Part shown: piece by piece, positions 8,004 through 10,733 of the stretch
How the letters are laid out: the number at the start of each line of letters is the position of its first letter
How positions within the stretch are numbered: position 1 is the stretch's first letter
Assembly (NCBI GenBank): GCA_900758315.1
Contig: CAAERF010000150.1
Location: 1-11,462 of the forward strand
Reading direction: 5' to 3'
Source of the DNA: an uncultured Oscillospiraceae bacterium
Lineage (GTDB): Bacteria; Bacillota; Clostridia; Oscillospirales; Oscillospiraceae
DNA: 11,462 nucleotides
Notes under the pieces: model-generated
The model's database searches: none
Seen by the model: only the letters and a program-made list of their open reading frames with translations
Told to the model about the DNA's origin: nothing
Translations under genes and position numbers: made by a program

Positions 8004-8435
8004 ATGCCGACTGCAACTCTCATCAATCAGAAAGTGCGTGAAATCCACTTTAACAACGACCTTGAACGAAAGCATGGCAATAACCGACAGCTGGGCAGCA
8101 GCTTTTCCTTCCAGGTGAACTACTCTCCTGACGGAGAGCGCTGTGTGGCGAAGCTCTACCACTCTTTGAAGGATAAGGAGGACGAAAAGCTCTTCTTCCT
8201 GTCTGTGGAAATGCTGGGTGTGTTCAAGTGCGAAGGAGTAGAGACCGAGGAGGACAAGAAGATCATCCATACCCAGTGCTACGACCAGCTGTTTCCCTAT
8301 ATGCAGTCTGAGGTGTCCCACCTCTGCACCGCTTCCGGCATGAACGGGCTGGTGCTGAAAAAGGCCAAGATTGACCCCAGTCAGGTGGTCCTCAACAAGG
8401 GCAAAAAGCAGGAACCTACCCTGCCCATCGTGTGA
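8004..8435 (+). CDS. SecB-like small protein
   Basis: A 143-residue cytoplasmic protein with no signal peptide or membrane helix. The layout resembles the SecB fold: an N-terminal strand with alternating hydrophobics (VREIHFNND), a central FFLSVEMLGVFKCEG (64-78) like the SecB strand that carries a 'y.G.F' motif, then QLFPYMQSEVSHLCTASGMN (95-114), which parallels SecB's LFPYaRe.is.lt..gg, followed by VLKKAKIDPSQV in place of l.l.pinf. SecB tetramers hold precursor proteins unfolded for export, and SecB-like proteins also serve as toxin-antitoxin chaperones. Classical SecB is absent from most Firmicutes, so role and partner are open; no toxin-antitoxin gene lies beside it. AAGGAGG precedes the ATG. 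It is monocistronic, between its own promoter and a strong terminator. Confidence 0.6.
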   Translation: MPTATLINQKVREIHFNNDLERKHGNNRQLGSSFSFQVNYSPDGERCVAKLYHSLKDKEDEKLFFLSVEMLGVFKCEGVETEEDKKIIHTQCYDQLFPYMQSEVSHLCTASGMNGLVLKKAKIDPSQVVLNKGKKQEPTLPIV

Positions 8436-8512: not shown

Positions 8513-9046
8513 TTAGTTTACCTGTTCGATGGATTGATCAGATGGGATTCTCCAGCCGTCTGAACCATATTTCTCGACTGTTAATTGCGCCACAATACGG
8601 TCATCATCCTGTTCTGTCCCAGTGTTATTTACAGTAAACTGAACCACTGCCGTATCTCCCAATAGATTGCCAGCTCCTGGTATTGCAAAGATCATTTTCT
8701 GTTGTTCCTCTGATAGTTCATTGCTGCTAAAAGCAACCACTGTCACATCAGAGACCTCTAGTTTTTGGTCTGAATCTGAAATCTCATATCCAAAGAGCGG
8801 GGAAATTCCTATAATAGATTTAAAATCGATACCCGTTAAATTCTCGGAAAGATTCAGAATACTGTCAATCGTTCTCTCTGTCTTGGGGTCACAGCAGGCC
8901 ACTAAGCCGGCGACATCTGAGTCGTCGTAAGCATCGCAGAATTCGCGGACTACCCCAGTTGGAGAAGAAATGAAAAAGTTTAAATATACAAATAAGCCCC
9001 CAAATATCACAAGAATCAAGAGCCCAATAGAGGCAAAACGTTTCAT
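8513..9046 (-). CDS. single-anchor extracytoplasmic protein, NTF2/DUF4878-like
   Basis: A 177-residue protein of unknown function. A hydrophobic anchor (about 4-26) follows MKRF. There is no lipobox cysteine, so it is probably an uncleaved anchor. The exported part opens with VVREFCDAYDDSDVAGLVAC (32-51), the look of the first helices of NTF2-fold/DUF4878 domains, and ends with a strand-rich section closing on EKYGSDGWRI (158-167), also typical of them. Two cysteines at 51-52 may be redox active or structural. The frame is open 17 codons further upstream, but ATG at 9046 is preferred: GGGAG lies 7 nt before it and the preceding gene's TAA overlaps it (TAATG), so the two are coupled. AT-richer than the genes on either side. 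Confidence 0.75.
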   Translation of the reverse strand: MKRFASIGLLILVIFGGLFVYLNFFISSPTGVVREFCDAYDDSDVAGLVACCDPKTERTIDSILNLSENLTGIDFKSIIGISPLFGYEISDSDQKLEVSDVTVVAFSSNELSEEQQKMIFAIPGAGNLLGDTAVVQFTVNNTGTEQDDDRIVAQLTVEKYGSDGWRIPSDQSIEQVN

Positions 9047-9597
9047 TACTCCTCTCCCTTTGCACTGTCCTTCATCTTGGATGCAATAATAGAACAAATT
9101 CCGCCAAGTAAGCAGGTAAATGGGAAAATTGTGAGGGACACGCTGATATAATCTTGCATGCTATTCTGCTTTATCATACTCGACACATACCCAATCAACA
9201 AGAAAAAGAGCAGCGTAGTCAAAACACTAACCACACCAGCAATCGTTCCAATCGGATAGGCTCGGGAGTTTCCGTTCAATCTGAAGTAGATGGCTGCCAC
9301 ATAGAGCAGGATTACCACAATGCCCAAAAGCATAAAAGTTGTGCCAATAACCTTTAGCACATCAAGACCATCCGATTCACCACTTAAACTGCTTATCAGG
9401 TTATAGAGCTTATTTGTATAGCCCCGAATTCCGAATACAGAACAGCTGCCATTCATCCCACTTAAGCTACCCCAAAAAATGTCGGACGAGAACCAGTTGA
9501 AGAACATTGAAATTGCGGCTACTGCGGCTGAAACATAAAAAGCAATGGGTGTTTCAAGTCGATCAAGTATTTTCCGCATAGTGTTGTTTTCTGACAT
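9046..9597 (-). CDS. four-helix membrane protein, unknown function
   Basis: A 183-residue membrane protein I do not recognise. Four hydrophobic helices are visible at about 18-36, 82-104, 114-139 and 150-172. A roughly 45-residue loop between the first two contains a short Cys/Gly-rich piece (MNGSCSVFGIRGY). Both ends are charged and probably cytoplasmic. The start was set at 9597: GAAGGAG lies 9 nt before this ATG, whereas an in-frame ATG three codons earlier abuts GGAG and could not be used well. First gene of a two-gene unit with the anchored protein. Low GC compared with the ABC/kinase region suggests recent acquisition or a different history. Expression may depend on the unusual palindromic upstream region. 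Confidence 0.75.
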   Translation of the reverse strand: MSENNTMRKILDRLETPIAFYVSAAVAAISMFFNWFSSDIFWGSLSGMNGSCSVFGIRGYTNKLYNLISSLSGESDGLDVLKVIGTTFMLLGIVVILLYVAAIYFRLNGNSRAYPIGTIAGVVSVLTTLLFFLLIGYVSSMIKQNSMQDYISVSLTIFPFTCLLGGICSIIASKMKDSAKGEE

Positions 9598-9626
9598 TTT
9601 AAGCATCTCCTTCTTTCTGATAATTT

Positions 9627-9655
9627 TATTTAAGTGTACTTTTTTACAAGTACAA
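9627..9655 (-). promoter_or_regulatory. weak promoter candidate for the membrane-protein pair
   Basis: The minus strand reads TTGTAC (9655-9650), a 17-bp spacer and TAAATA (9632-9627). An alternative is TTGTAA with a short 15-bp spacer to TAAAAT. Both are sub-optimal. The inverted repeat TGTACTT/AAGTACA lies between the elements, which is where an operator would block polymerase. Confidence 0.3.
9635..9654. repeat. left palindrome (operator or recombinase-site candidate)
   Basis: TGTACTT and AAGTACA are separated by 6 nt. It overlaps the left arm of the 12-bp repeat and the weak minus-strand promoter. A second perfect 12-bp palindrome, AACTTATAAGTT, begins immediately after it at 9655-9666, and ATTTTT-c-AAAAAT follows at 9669-9681. 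Such clustering suggests protein binding. Confidence 0.4.
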
Positions 9656-9702
9656 ACTTATAAGTTAAATTTTTCAAAAATAAGGAGAAATTCACTTCAT
9701 CC

Positions 9703-9731
9703 TTGACATAATATGACAAATATGCTATCCT
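9703..9731 (+). promoter_or_regulatory. strong promoter with no downstream gene in this orientation
   Basis: Perfect -35 TTGACA (9703-9708), optimal 17-bp spacer, and -10 TATCCT (9726-9731) preceded by TGC, an extended -10. Start site near 9738. It faces the 3' end of the convergent recombinase gene, and no plus-strand gene follows. It lies inside the inverted repeat pair 9634-9764. Confidence 0.65.
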
Positions 9732-9746
9732 AAAATAGAAATGTGG

Positions 9747-9776
9747 TTTTACAAAAAAGTACACCTTTTTGTAAAA
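9747..9776. repeat. right palindrome beside the recombinase gene
   Basis: TTTTACAAAAA (9747-9757) and TTTTTGTAAAA (9766-9776) are perfect 11-bp arms around AGTACACC, 8 bp beyond the recombinase stop. It overlaps the right arm of the 12-bp repeat. A 30-bp dyad of this kind suits a recombinase dimer site or operator. As an RNA it could act as an AT-rich terminator, because TTTTTTATTTTT follows on the plus strand at 9781-9792. Confidence 0.5.
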
Positions 9777-9784
9777 ACGCTTTT

Positions 9785-10393
9785 TTATTTTTGTTGTTTT
9801 TCATACTGCGCCGCCCGGTAACGGAAGGTGGACAAAGGCATTCCGCACGCCTTTGCGGCGGCGGTACCAGTCAGTTCACCGTCCTTCCAGCGCTGATAAA
9901 CCTCCGGAAAATTGTCCGGCAGTGGAAGCGGCGGCCTGCCGAACCGCACTCCCCGGGCTTTTGCGGCGGCAATGCCCTCGGCCTGACGCTGGCGGATATT
10001 GGAGCGCTCGTTCTCCGCCACGAAGGAGAGGATTTGCAGGACGATGTCGCTGAGGAAGGTGCCCATCAAATCCTTGCCGCGCCGGGTGTCCAGCAGCGGC
10101 ATGTCCAGGACGACAATATCCACCTGCTTCTCTTTGGTGAGGACCCGCCATTGGGTGAGGATTTCCTCATAGTTGCGCCCCAGGCGGTCAATGCTCTTGA
10201 TGTAGAGCAGATCGCCCTTTTTCAGCCGGCGCAGCAGCTTCCGGTACATGGGCCGGTTAAAATCCTTCCCGGACTGCTTGTCCATGTAGATCTGTCCCGC
10301 CGGAATATTCAGATTTTGCAGAGCGACCAACTGACGGTCCTCATTCTGTTCCCTTGTGCTGACTCGAATATACCCATAAATATGACCTGTCAA
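9785..10393 (-). CDS. small serine recombinase (resolvase/invertase family)
   Basis: A 202-residue site-specific recombinase that cuts and rejoins DNA through a phosphoserine link. The catalytic domain spans about 4-140: YIRVSTREQNEDRQ gives nucleophile Ser12 with Arg10, and SIDRLGRNYEEI gives Asp69, Arg70 and Arg73. A long helix (about 115-148, ENERSNIRQRQAEGIAAAKA) follows, then GRPP and a C-terminal helix-turn-helix (about 162-192) for site recognition. The length matches resolvases and DNA invertases, not large integrases. The start codon is TTG, supported by AGGAGG 7-8 nt upstream. No transposase is nearby, so it is either a remnant of an element or a stand-alone switch enzyme. It converges with the promoter at 9703 and ends 8 bp from a 30-bp palindrome. 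Confidence 0.92.
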   Translation of the reverse strand: MTGHIYGYIRVSTREQNEDRQLVALQNLNIPAGQIYMDKQSGKDFNRPMYRKLLRRLKKGDLLYIKSIDRLGRNYEEILTQWRVLTKEKQVDIVVLDMPLLDTRRGKDLMGTFLSDIVLQILSFVAENERSNIRQRQAEGIAAAKARGVRFGRPPLPLPDNFPEVYQRWKDGELTGTAAAKACGMPLSTFRYRAAQYEKQQK

Positions 10394-10733
10394 AGAACTC
10401 CCTCCTGTTTCGGTAATGCTGTAGAAAACATTGTAGGGATGGAATTCCGGGAAAGGTAGATAATGTATGAATTTCGAGGGGAATTAGAGAGAAAAGTTAC
10501 AGGTTTTGGCAGAGTTGTGGCTTTTTTGGAATGTTATAAGGCGTGTAACCGCTGTGCTGAAGCCGCAAAAAACACCCGCTGTGTAAGCGGGTGTTTTTCT
10601 ATGTCCCCAATGGCAGAAGGGACGTAATTGAGGAGGGATGCGCAGCCCGTTGCAGGGGAGGTCGACAGGCCGCGCGAAATTCGCTTAGATTGATTCAGAC
10701 ACAACAATTTTAAATTCAGGAGGATAGTTTATA
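10394..10733. other. intergenic region between recombinase and carbonic anhydrase
   Basis: No gene is seen. On the minus strand a TACAAT (10435-10430) could be the -10 of the recombinase, with only a weak -35 (TACCTT, 17 bp away). A second possible site is CATTAT near 10470. The perfect palindrome CGGAATTCCG lies at about 10440-10449. The segment 10600-10733, between the terminator hairpin and the carbonic anhydrase stop, holds no convincing reading frame; if the hairpin ends that gene, it is a 135-nt 3' untranslated region. An AGGAGG at about 10718 on the plus strand has no start codon after it. Confidence 0.5.
10568..10598. terminator. strong intrinsic terminator (bidirectional form)
   Basis: AAAAACACCCGCT and AGCGGGTGTTTTT make a perfect 13-bp inverted repeat around GTGTA. 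The A- and T-runs suit termination on either strand. On the minus strand it would end carbonic anhydrase transcription and insulate the recombinase gene. Confidence 0.9.

Follow-up and report, generated by a model that had tools for sequence, protein, structure and literature searches.

A stretch of 11,462 nucleotides from an uncultured Oscillospiraceae bacterium (contig CAAERF010000150.1 of assembly GCA_900758315.1, hereafter the window) carries a gene for a small serine recombinase, a pair of genes for membrane proteins and, between them, a short segment that holds a promoter pointing away from the membrane genes and is bounded by inverted repeats. The question raised by this locus is whether the segment is a switch, and if so which enzyme works it. 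We found that positions 9638-9760 are very probably an invertible promoter that is flipped by the adjacent serine recombinase and controls the two-gene membrane module. The original prediction of an invertible promoter beside a serine recombinase was supported by the anatomy of the locus, by a layout shared throughout the recombinase clade and by opposite orientations of the segment in related loci. Switches in which a site-specific recombinase inverts a promoter are well established; what appears to be new here is a self-contained invertible-promoter cassette with its own clade of serine recombinases, mostly in Clostridia.

The recombinase gene (9785..10393, minus strand) encodes 202 amino acids with a match to PF00239 at residues 5-149 (E 7.7e-30), and we propose its product as the DNA invertase of the switch. 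On the other side of the segment, cargo gene 1 (9046..9597, minus strand) encodes a membrane protein of 183 amino acids with about four hydrophobic helices by eye. Its end is overlapped by cargo gene 2 (8513..9046, minus strand), which encodes 177 amino acids with an N-terminal hydrophobic helix and a remainder that, judged by eye, is probably exported; Pfam gave no family for either cargo protein. The best start of cargo gene 1 was ATG 9597, with the Shine-Dalgarno sequence AAGGAG at a spacing of 9 nt, and its homologue P0001 is likewise 183 amino acids long. A perfect 12-bp inverted repeat had been claimed to enclose the promoter, and both arms matched exactly over the 12 bp (GTGTACTTTTTT at 9634-9645 and AAAAAAGTACAC at 9753-9764); the recombinase gene, as had also been stated, ended 20 bp from the repeat, at 9785. 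The arms lie within two larger recombination sites. The recombinase-proximal site (9746..9778) is a near-perfect palindrome, GTTTTACAAAAAAGTACACCTTTTTGTAAAAAC, with a predicted crossover dinucleotide at 9761-9762 (GT on the minus strand). The distal site (9623..9650) is inverted, with a good inner half (ACTTTTTTACAAG), an exact 12-bp match to the proximal site and a predicted crossover dinucleotide at 9636-9637. The invertible segment between the predicted dinucleotides is 9638..9760, corresponding to a core-to-core span of 125 bp.

The promoter within this segment is of the extended -10 type, TTGACA-17-(TG)-TATCCT, and lies at 9703..9731 on the plus strand. It has 10 of 12 matches and TG before the -10, and it was the sole one with TG among the 7 promoter sites of at least 9/12 found in 8800-10500 (shuffles 2.9, sd 1.6). 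As sequenced, it faces the 3' end of the recombinase gene, in agreement with the claim that it points away from the membrane pair and into a convergent gene; this orientation is referred to as OFF. After inversion in silico the same promoter occupied 9695-9667 on the minus strand and faced the cargo (ON), its -35 having moved to 9695-9690 and its -10 to 9672-9667, where both had been forecast. The inverted -10 ends at 9667 and the likely start codon is ATG 9597, which bears out the expected leader of about 60 nt. Every crossover position within the 12-bp arms yielded the identical inversion product. The only cargo-facing match of at least 9/12 in 9590-9800 as sequenced overlaps the start codon (9623-9596), and after inversion no match of this quality faced the recombinase within the same interval. 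Inversion also turned two weaker promoters without TG (9/12 and 10/12) toward the cargo. Directly downstream of the OFF promoter lies a terminator-like hairpin with a T-rich tract (9746..9795, plus strand; minimum free energy -11.1 kcal/mol), which was missed by a terminator scan requiring 3 G-C pairs. Half of its stem is carried away by inversion, and on the minus strand the proximal stretch folded at -10.8 as found and -7.1 after inversion.

We propose that the recombinase would bind the two inverted GTGTAC-centred sites and pair them across a short loop, and that strand exchange at the 2-bp GT/AC core would turn the promoter round. In the OFF state, the one sequenced, the promoter would face the recombinase 3' end and run into the terminator-like hairpin, and the two membrane genes would be left without an evident promoter of their own. 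In the ON state some 60 nt would separate it from the downstream ATG 9597, and it would drive the two-gene module, with half of the hairpin replaced. The outcome would be phase-variable expression of the membrane module. The window copy of the switch is presumably active. That the adjacent recombinase performs the inversion is probable from the joint occurrence of this enzyme and the site pair in the related loci described below.

Eighty genome loci, the best 80 of at least 567 relatives, and 12 viral loci were gathered by recombinase protein similarity alone; at E 0.001 the window recombinase has at least 8000 homologues. Among the 93 sequences (92 loci and the window), a site pair was called in 70, 15 had none and 8 were short of downstream DNA or of a stop. 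Three loci (L006, L015 and L088) were dropped as miscalled, which left 67 site-bearing sequences, namely the window, 2 viral and 64 genome loci. Inverted GTGTAC-centred sites were present downstream of the recombinase in 64 of the 80 genome loci, 10 were without them and 6 were not scorable. Two of the loci counted as siteless (L056 and L067) retain a GTGTA core at the proximal position, and three short, unscored ones (L014, L032 and L073) show a proximal GTGTAC core. In the common layout the recombinase stop is followed by a site TTTACAGGAA-TGTGTAC-TTTCTGTAAA, the segment and an inverted second site ending AAGTACAC; beyond the distal site stands a same-direction gene in most loci, cargo open reading frames (ORFs) having been called on the downstream strand only. 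Of the 84 flanks downstream of a recombinase (the window and 83 loci), 45 contained an exact inverted repeat 10 bp or longer; among 420 dinucleotide shuffles there were 14 with such a repeat, and among 81 upstream flanks 3. The site core is contained in 41 of these 45 repeats and absent from 4, as read by eye from the list. A strict extended -10 motif occurred in 47 of the 67 segments, compared with 0.6% of mononucleotide-shuffled segments, and it pointed toward the recombinase in 37, toward the cargo in 10 and both ways in none. A simpler promoter score, applied to the 70 called loci, gave 52 OFF, 11 ON and 7 undecided. The switch travels with the recombinase rather than with the window cargo and recurs beside many other cargo genes. 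On viral contigs, L005, L007 and L008 have the same layout, with arms of TCTCAAAAA or TTTCAAAAA type around GTGTAC or GTATAC; their recombinases are more diverged, and the arms vary around a retained core.

The sites themselves were compared across this family. The proximal core follows the recombinase stop by 20 nt in the window and by 20 or 21 nt in 57 of the 67 sequences. In the proximal site the symmetry of the arms is centred on the second GT of GTGTAC; from this symmetry and the known behaviour of serine recombinases we infer that this GT is the crossover dinucleotide. In 58 of 67 pairs the two sites share the same core hexamer, which in 3 of these pairs is GTGTAG on both sides. The first inner base beside the core matched that of its partner in 81% of cases compared with 32% for shuffled partners (0/2000), and the outer base beside the core showed a small excess (37% vs 25%; 25/2000 shuffles). 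Core-to-core distances fell into classes of 113-116, 125-128, 134-139 and 148-149 bp with a period of about 11.2 bp (R 0.84 for 55 non-redundant spans; maximum 0.46 in 2000 uniform draws), and the window span of 125 bp belongs to the 125-128 bp class. Because the classes sit about one helical turn apart, the natural reading is that both sites would have to occupy the same face of a short loop.

The original prediction had raised as an objection that the two arms sit in non-identical larger palindromes. The palindromes do differ, but this asymmetry is a family feature: the proximal site is a nearly full palindrome throughout the family and the distal site keeps mainly its inner half. The window distal site is ordinary in this respect, with 7 of 14 consensus positions matched in its outer half, where the family median is 8 and 25 of 67 sequences score 7 or less. 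These values also bear on the main rival explanation, a decayed switch locked in the OFF position, in which inversion has been lost in this strain and the membrane module is silent or fed by read-through from the recombinase gene. Slow or lost switching is possible in the window strain, and locked relatives exist: a comparison of L015 (8642-8800) with L027 suggests that L015 no longer has its proximal site, although it keeps the promoter and the distal site, and it looks like a locked-OFF derivative. In the window, however, the 12-bp repeat is exact, the GTGTAC cores are intact, the span falls in the 125-128 class, and the recombinase frame and the promoter are intact as well. The outer half of the distal site lies near the family median, compared with 8-10 of 14 in the seven flipped loci checked, and therefore bears no mark of decay. 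We consider a locked switch unlikely.

The occurrence of flipped versions among relatives was a check named beforehand, and such versions were found in homologous loci with other cargo. Cargo-homologous pairs were taken as those sharing DNA homology within 900 bp past the distal site, and numbered 40 before the three loci were dropped and 34 after. Among the 34, the segment was opposite in 9, the same in 16 and unclear in 9. The 9 opposite pairs represent at least four separate cases and are not independent: L031 against L019 and L023, L077 against L055 and L046, L065 against L033, and L060 against L013, L024, L047 and L085. For comparison, the segment of one locus in each pair was inverted in silico from one core dinucleotide to the other. 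After this inversion L055 and L077, whose cargo is 95% identical, agreed at 225 of 228 positions compared with 169 of 252 as found; the values were 188/209 and 158/229 for L019 and L031, and 171/218 and 148/231 for L033 and L065, both of which bear isolate strain names. The inversion that restored agreement ended within the GTGTAC cores.

These flipped relatives bear directly on another explanation, that the repeats are a terminator or the ends of a mobile recombinase gene, such as a resolvase cassette, and that the promoter is incidental. The proximal site does form a hairpin at the recombinase 3' end, and the recombinase gene is widespread and seems mobile between lineages. Both the transposon-end and the terminator-only form of this explanation are nevertheless disfavoured by the relatives that hold the segment inverted between unchanged flanks, by the promoter motif (47/67 vs 0.6% of shuffles) and by the phased spacing, and exact repeats of at least 10 bp occurred in just 3 of the 81 upstream flanks. 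An end structure with an incidental promoter is in our judgement highly improbable.

The hairpin may rather be a part of the invertible switch. At loci scored OFF, the mean energy of the RNA fold at the proximal site was -17.7 kcal/mol as found and -10.4 when inverted, and the fold was stronger as found in 40 of 50. At loci scored ON the values were -10.3 as found and -16.2 inverted, and the fold was stronger after inversion in 9 of 11; the trend was reversed or equal in 12 of all 61 loci. These shifts in predicted fold energy suggest that the 3' end of the recombinase gains a hairpin when the segment turns to OFF and loses it when the segment turns to ON.

The solved chain nearest to the window recombinase was 'Putative transposon Tn552 DNA-invertase bin3' (Sin) 2r0q (E 1.4e-32), with the stretches IRVST and SIDRLGRN aligned, which we take to hold the catalytic residues. 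By sequence, its solved relatives were, in order, Sin/Tn552 Bin3, the gamma-delta and Tn3 resolvases, and chains named DNA-invertase. Residues 160-202 resemble a helix-turn-helix by eye, and no Pfam helix-turn-helix match was obtained at E 0.001. In a recombinase tree of 91 sequences (midpoint root, bootstrap not settled), a group of 82 rows with support 98/90 comprised 65 members with the sites, 11 without them and 6 that were unscored, and the window recombinase was among its deeper branches. When 20 more distant paralogues from seven genomes (28-72% identity) were examined with the repeat test, only L115 (69%) had the layout; L118 (58%) has two cores arranged as in L115, with short arms. 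On the basis of the tree counts and this near-absence among distant paralogues, the layout is largely a property of the window recombinase clade, with losses. In both L115 and L118 the two cores are of opposite polarity relative to the recombinase, and in L115 a 16-bp inverted repeat, AAAAGTACACCTTTTG, was found after position 717.

Relatives of the recombinase were mostly from Bacillota, and the tree mixes Bacillota families. Culturable bacteria with the switch include Merdimonas faecis BR31 (L023), Pseudoflavonifractor sp. An44 (L065) and Agathobaculum desmolans (L013). Near-identical recombinases stood beside different cargo, a methylase-like gene in L013 and a zinc-ribbon protein in L033, and a metagenome-assembled genome (MAG) of the non-Bacillota order Gastranaerophilales (L084:8001-10145) contained a switch with MBOAT acyltransferase cargo, through either transfer or contamination. 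The mixed tree, the differing cargo and the Gastranaerophilales member together suggest that the recombinase and its switch have been transferred between lineages, MAG error permitting. The records named Ruminococcus turbiniformis (L017) and Lactonifactor longoviformis (L018) share an identical recombinase, switch segment and 900 bp of downstream DNA, and therefore point to recent transfer. Plasmid records gave no recombinase match at E 1e-60, and phage records gave one DNA match, within the recombinase gene. The exact window promoter piece had no match in viral contigs, and the window intergenic region gave 7 weak matches to phage records (E 0.06 to 0.7).

A DNA pattern for the site pair alone, in which the recombinase was not used, was searched in 150 genomes of one family with the reversed pattern as control. 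Five places were found, in 5 of the 150 genomes, and none with the reversed pattern. Four of the five adjoin a recombinase of the window clade. Three places were known loci (L103 = L065, L106 = L081 and L107 = L074); the two new ones were L104, beside a recombinase, and L105/L108, an orphan. In the orphan switch (L108:6070-6300, on G034 contig 84) the letters ttgttgtaa, which are like the last recombinase codons, precede the proximal site, and the cargo is an S-layer-homology protein (PF00395, E 4.7e-30). Another contig of the same genome encodes a recombinase with 80% identity, and the orphan is possibly worked in trans by this paralogue.

The orphan brings in a further explanation for the window, namely that the segment is inverted by another recombinase in trans and that the adjacent gene is a passenger or one of several enzymes. 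Besides the 80% identical recombinase elsewhere in the genome of the orphan, the fact that one of the two new places was an orphan speaks for it, as does the Mpi enzyme of Bacteroides, which acts on many regions (PMC5903667). However, 64 of the 80 loci found through the recombinase hold the site pair, most of them with a constant interval between the recombinase stop and the proximal core, and the repeat test gave a site pair for only one of the 20 more distant serine recombinases in the seven genomes. We regard inversion in trans as quite improbable for the window. Approached from the recombinase, the link between a switch and a neighbouring recombinase is strong; most sites were found in this way, so that sites remote from a recombinase would be missed.

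Several observations weigh against a promoter that is inverted by its neighbouring recombinase. A site pair was lacking in 10 of the 74 scorable genome loci although their recombinases are close relatives, no cargo ORF was called in 5 of 70 loci, and 20 of the 67 segments had no strict promoter motif. L115 was alone among the 20 distant paralogues, and therefore a serine recombinase by itself is no predictor of a switch; conversely, no recombinase gene was present in the 10-kb locus of the orphan L108. The spans and sites share ancestry, and the permutation figures given above for both therefore overstate significance. The comparison of orientations covers homologous loci with other cargo, not the locus of the window itself, and the flips are differences between species, seen in single assemblies of which several are MAGs.

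Several known systems resemble the window switch. Salmonella hin encodes a small serine recombinase with two inverted sites of about 26-28 bp that have an asymmetric 2-bp centre, and its promoter-bearing segment is about 1 kb. The Hin and Gin DNA invertases have a Fis-bound recombinational enhancer. Like Hin and Gin, the proposed window switch has a small serine recombinase of the resolvase/invertase family, two inverted sites of about 26-28 bp with an asymmetric 2-bp centre and a promoter turned toward or away from its targets. Unlike in hin, the recombinase of the window clade lies outside the segment, which measures about 115-150 bp, and unlike Hin and Gin, the window recombinase is nearest among solved chains to Sin/Tn552 Bin3, with those named DNA-invertase ranking lower. 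RecV serves several distant switches. Invertible promoters of gut bacteria are reportedly treated by Jiang et al. 2019. According to PMC5903667, which covers inversions in Clostridia and describes both RecV and Mpi, RecV of Clostridioides difficile is a tyrosine recombinase. The proposed window switch is like the RecV switches in being a site-specific inversion in Clostridia with phase variation, and unlike them in that its enzyme is a serine recombinase. Mpi of Bacteroides fragilis is described there as one master enzyme for at least thirteen genome-scattered regions (PMC5903667); on this description both are serine recombinases that flip promoters, whereas a copy of the recombinase stands beside most of the switches found here.

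PMC11892184 presents the invertons of gut bacteria as short intergenic promoter segments between inverted repeats that control surface and other genes, and the window segment is likewise short, intergenic, promoter-bearing and placed between inverted repeats. It gives 9 linked inverton-invertase pairs, the most significant link being that of a tyrosine recombinase with 33 invertons, 32 of them in Clostridia; unlike in this top Clostridia group, the enzyme of the window clade is a serine recombinase. In its main text the words 'serine' and 'resolvase' are absent. Full-text searches of one literature library gave no description of the clade, the site or the spacing rule, and the supplementary tables of PMC11892184 may list the same repeats. 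PMC11868660 is a review. The abstract of PMC12529663 terms unknown the meaning of recombinase genes beside defence genes.

The cargo at the other loci was of several kinds. Pfam assignments were made for 40 of the 65 called cargo ORFs, one of them (L015) from a dropped locus and with homologous cargo counted repeatedly. Restriction-modification or defence-like cargo accounted for 12 of the 40 (Eco57I, MmeI, DNA methylase, PLD/SNF2 helicase and BrxA), among which L013 lies just below the Pfam cut-off. Surface-type proteins (SLH, BspA-type LRR, SpaA and VWA) and envelope-type enzymes (acyltransferases, MBOAT, PMT, sulfatase and deacetylase) made up 7 each, zinc-ribbon, Band 7 or DUF6591 proteins 6 and others 3; 5 were without a family. 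PADLOC gave matches for 8 of the 10 cargo proteins submitted to it. In a Candidatus Merdivicinus MAG (L025:4839-12185), an ON-oriented switch lies directly upstream of a BREX operon (brxA, brxB, brxC and pglX).

It is likely that a transferable cassette, composed of a serine recombinase, phased GTGTAC sites, a promoter and a recombinase 3'-end hairpin that inversion builds in the OFF state and breaks in the ON state, has spread over gut Clostridia, perhaps beyond, and stochastically controls unrelated genes. If so, the genes under its control would notably include those for restriction-modification, BREX and surface proteins, and BREX and restriction-modification might be toggled within clonal populations. 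Lone small serine recombinases abound in gut Clostridia and are easily taken for transposon debris. On this reading, many of the solo 'resolvase' annotations next to defence genes would mark switches that control the defence genes, which would give a concrete meaning to recombinase genes in such positions. If the clade carries its own switch, the site motif and the spacing rule would make many phase-variable genes predictable from sequence.

For the window cargo, a search of 5.8 billion proteins gave 2 homologues of cargo gene 1 and 2 of cargo gene 2, and a scan of the contigs of the genome collection gave no relative of the cargo gene 1 protein. The structure model of the cargo gene 1 product was of low confidence and consisted mostly of long helices (predicted local distance difference test, pLDDT, 49.6), and that of cargo gene 2 was unusable past the first helix (pLDDT 39); both were too poor as input to a fold search. 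The Rfam scan of the window gave no family at gathering thresholds. For the gliding-type ABC neighbour in the window, the best identity among 300 genomes of one family was 53%. In the four stretches around its best matches only the gldG-like and DUF4340-like neighbours were matched, and the other six neighbours and the recombinase were absent; all four run to a contig end and yield no empty-site comparison. At 8004-8435, convergent with the cargo genes, the window encodes a stand-alone SecB-like protein (PF02556).
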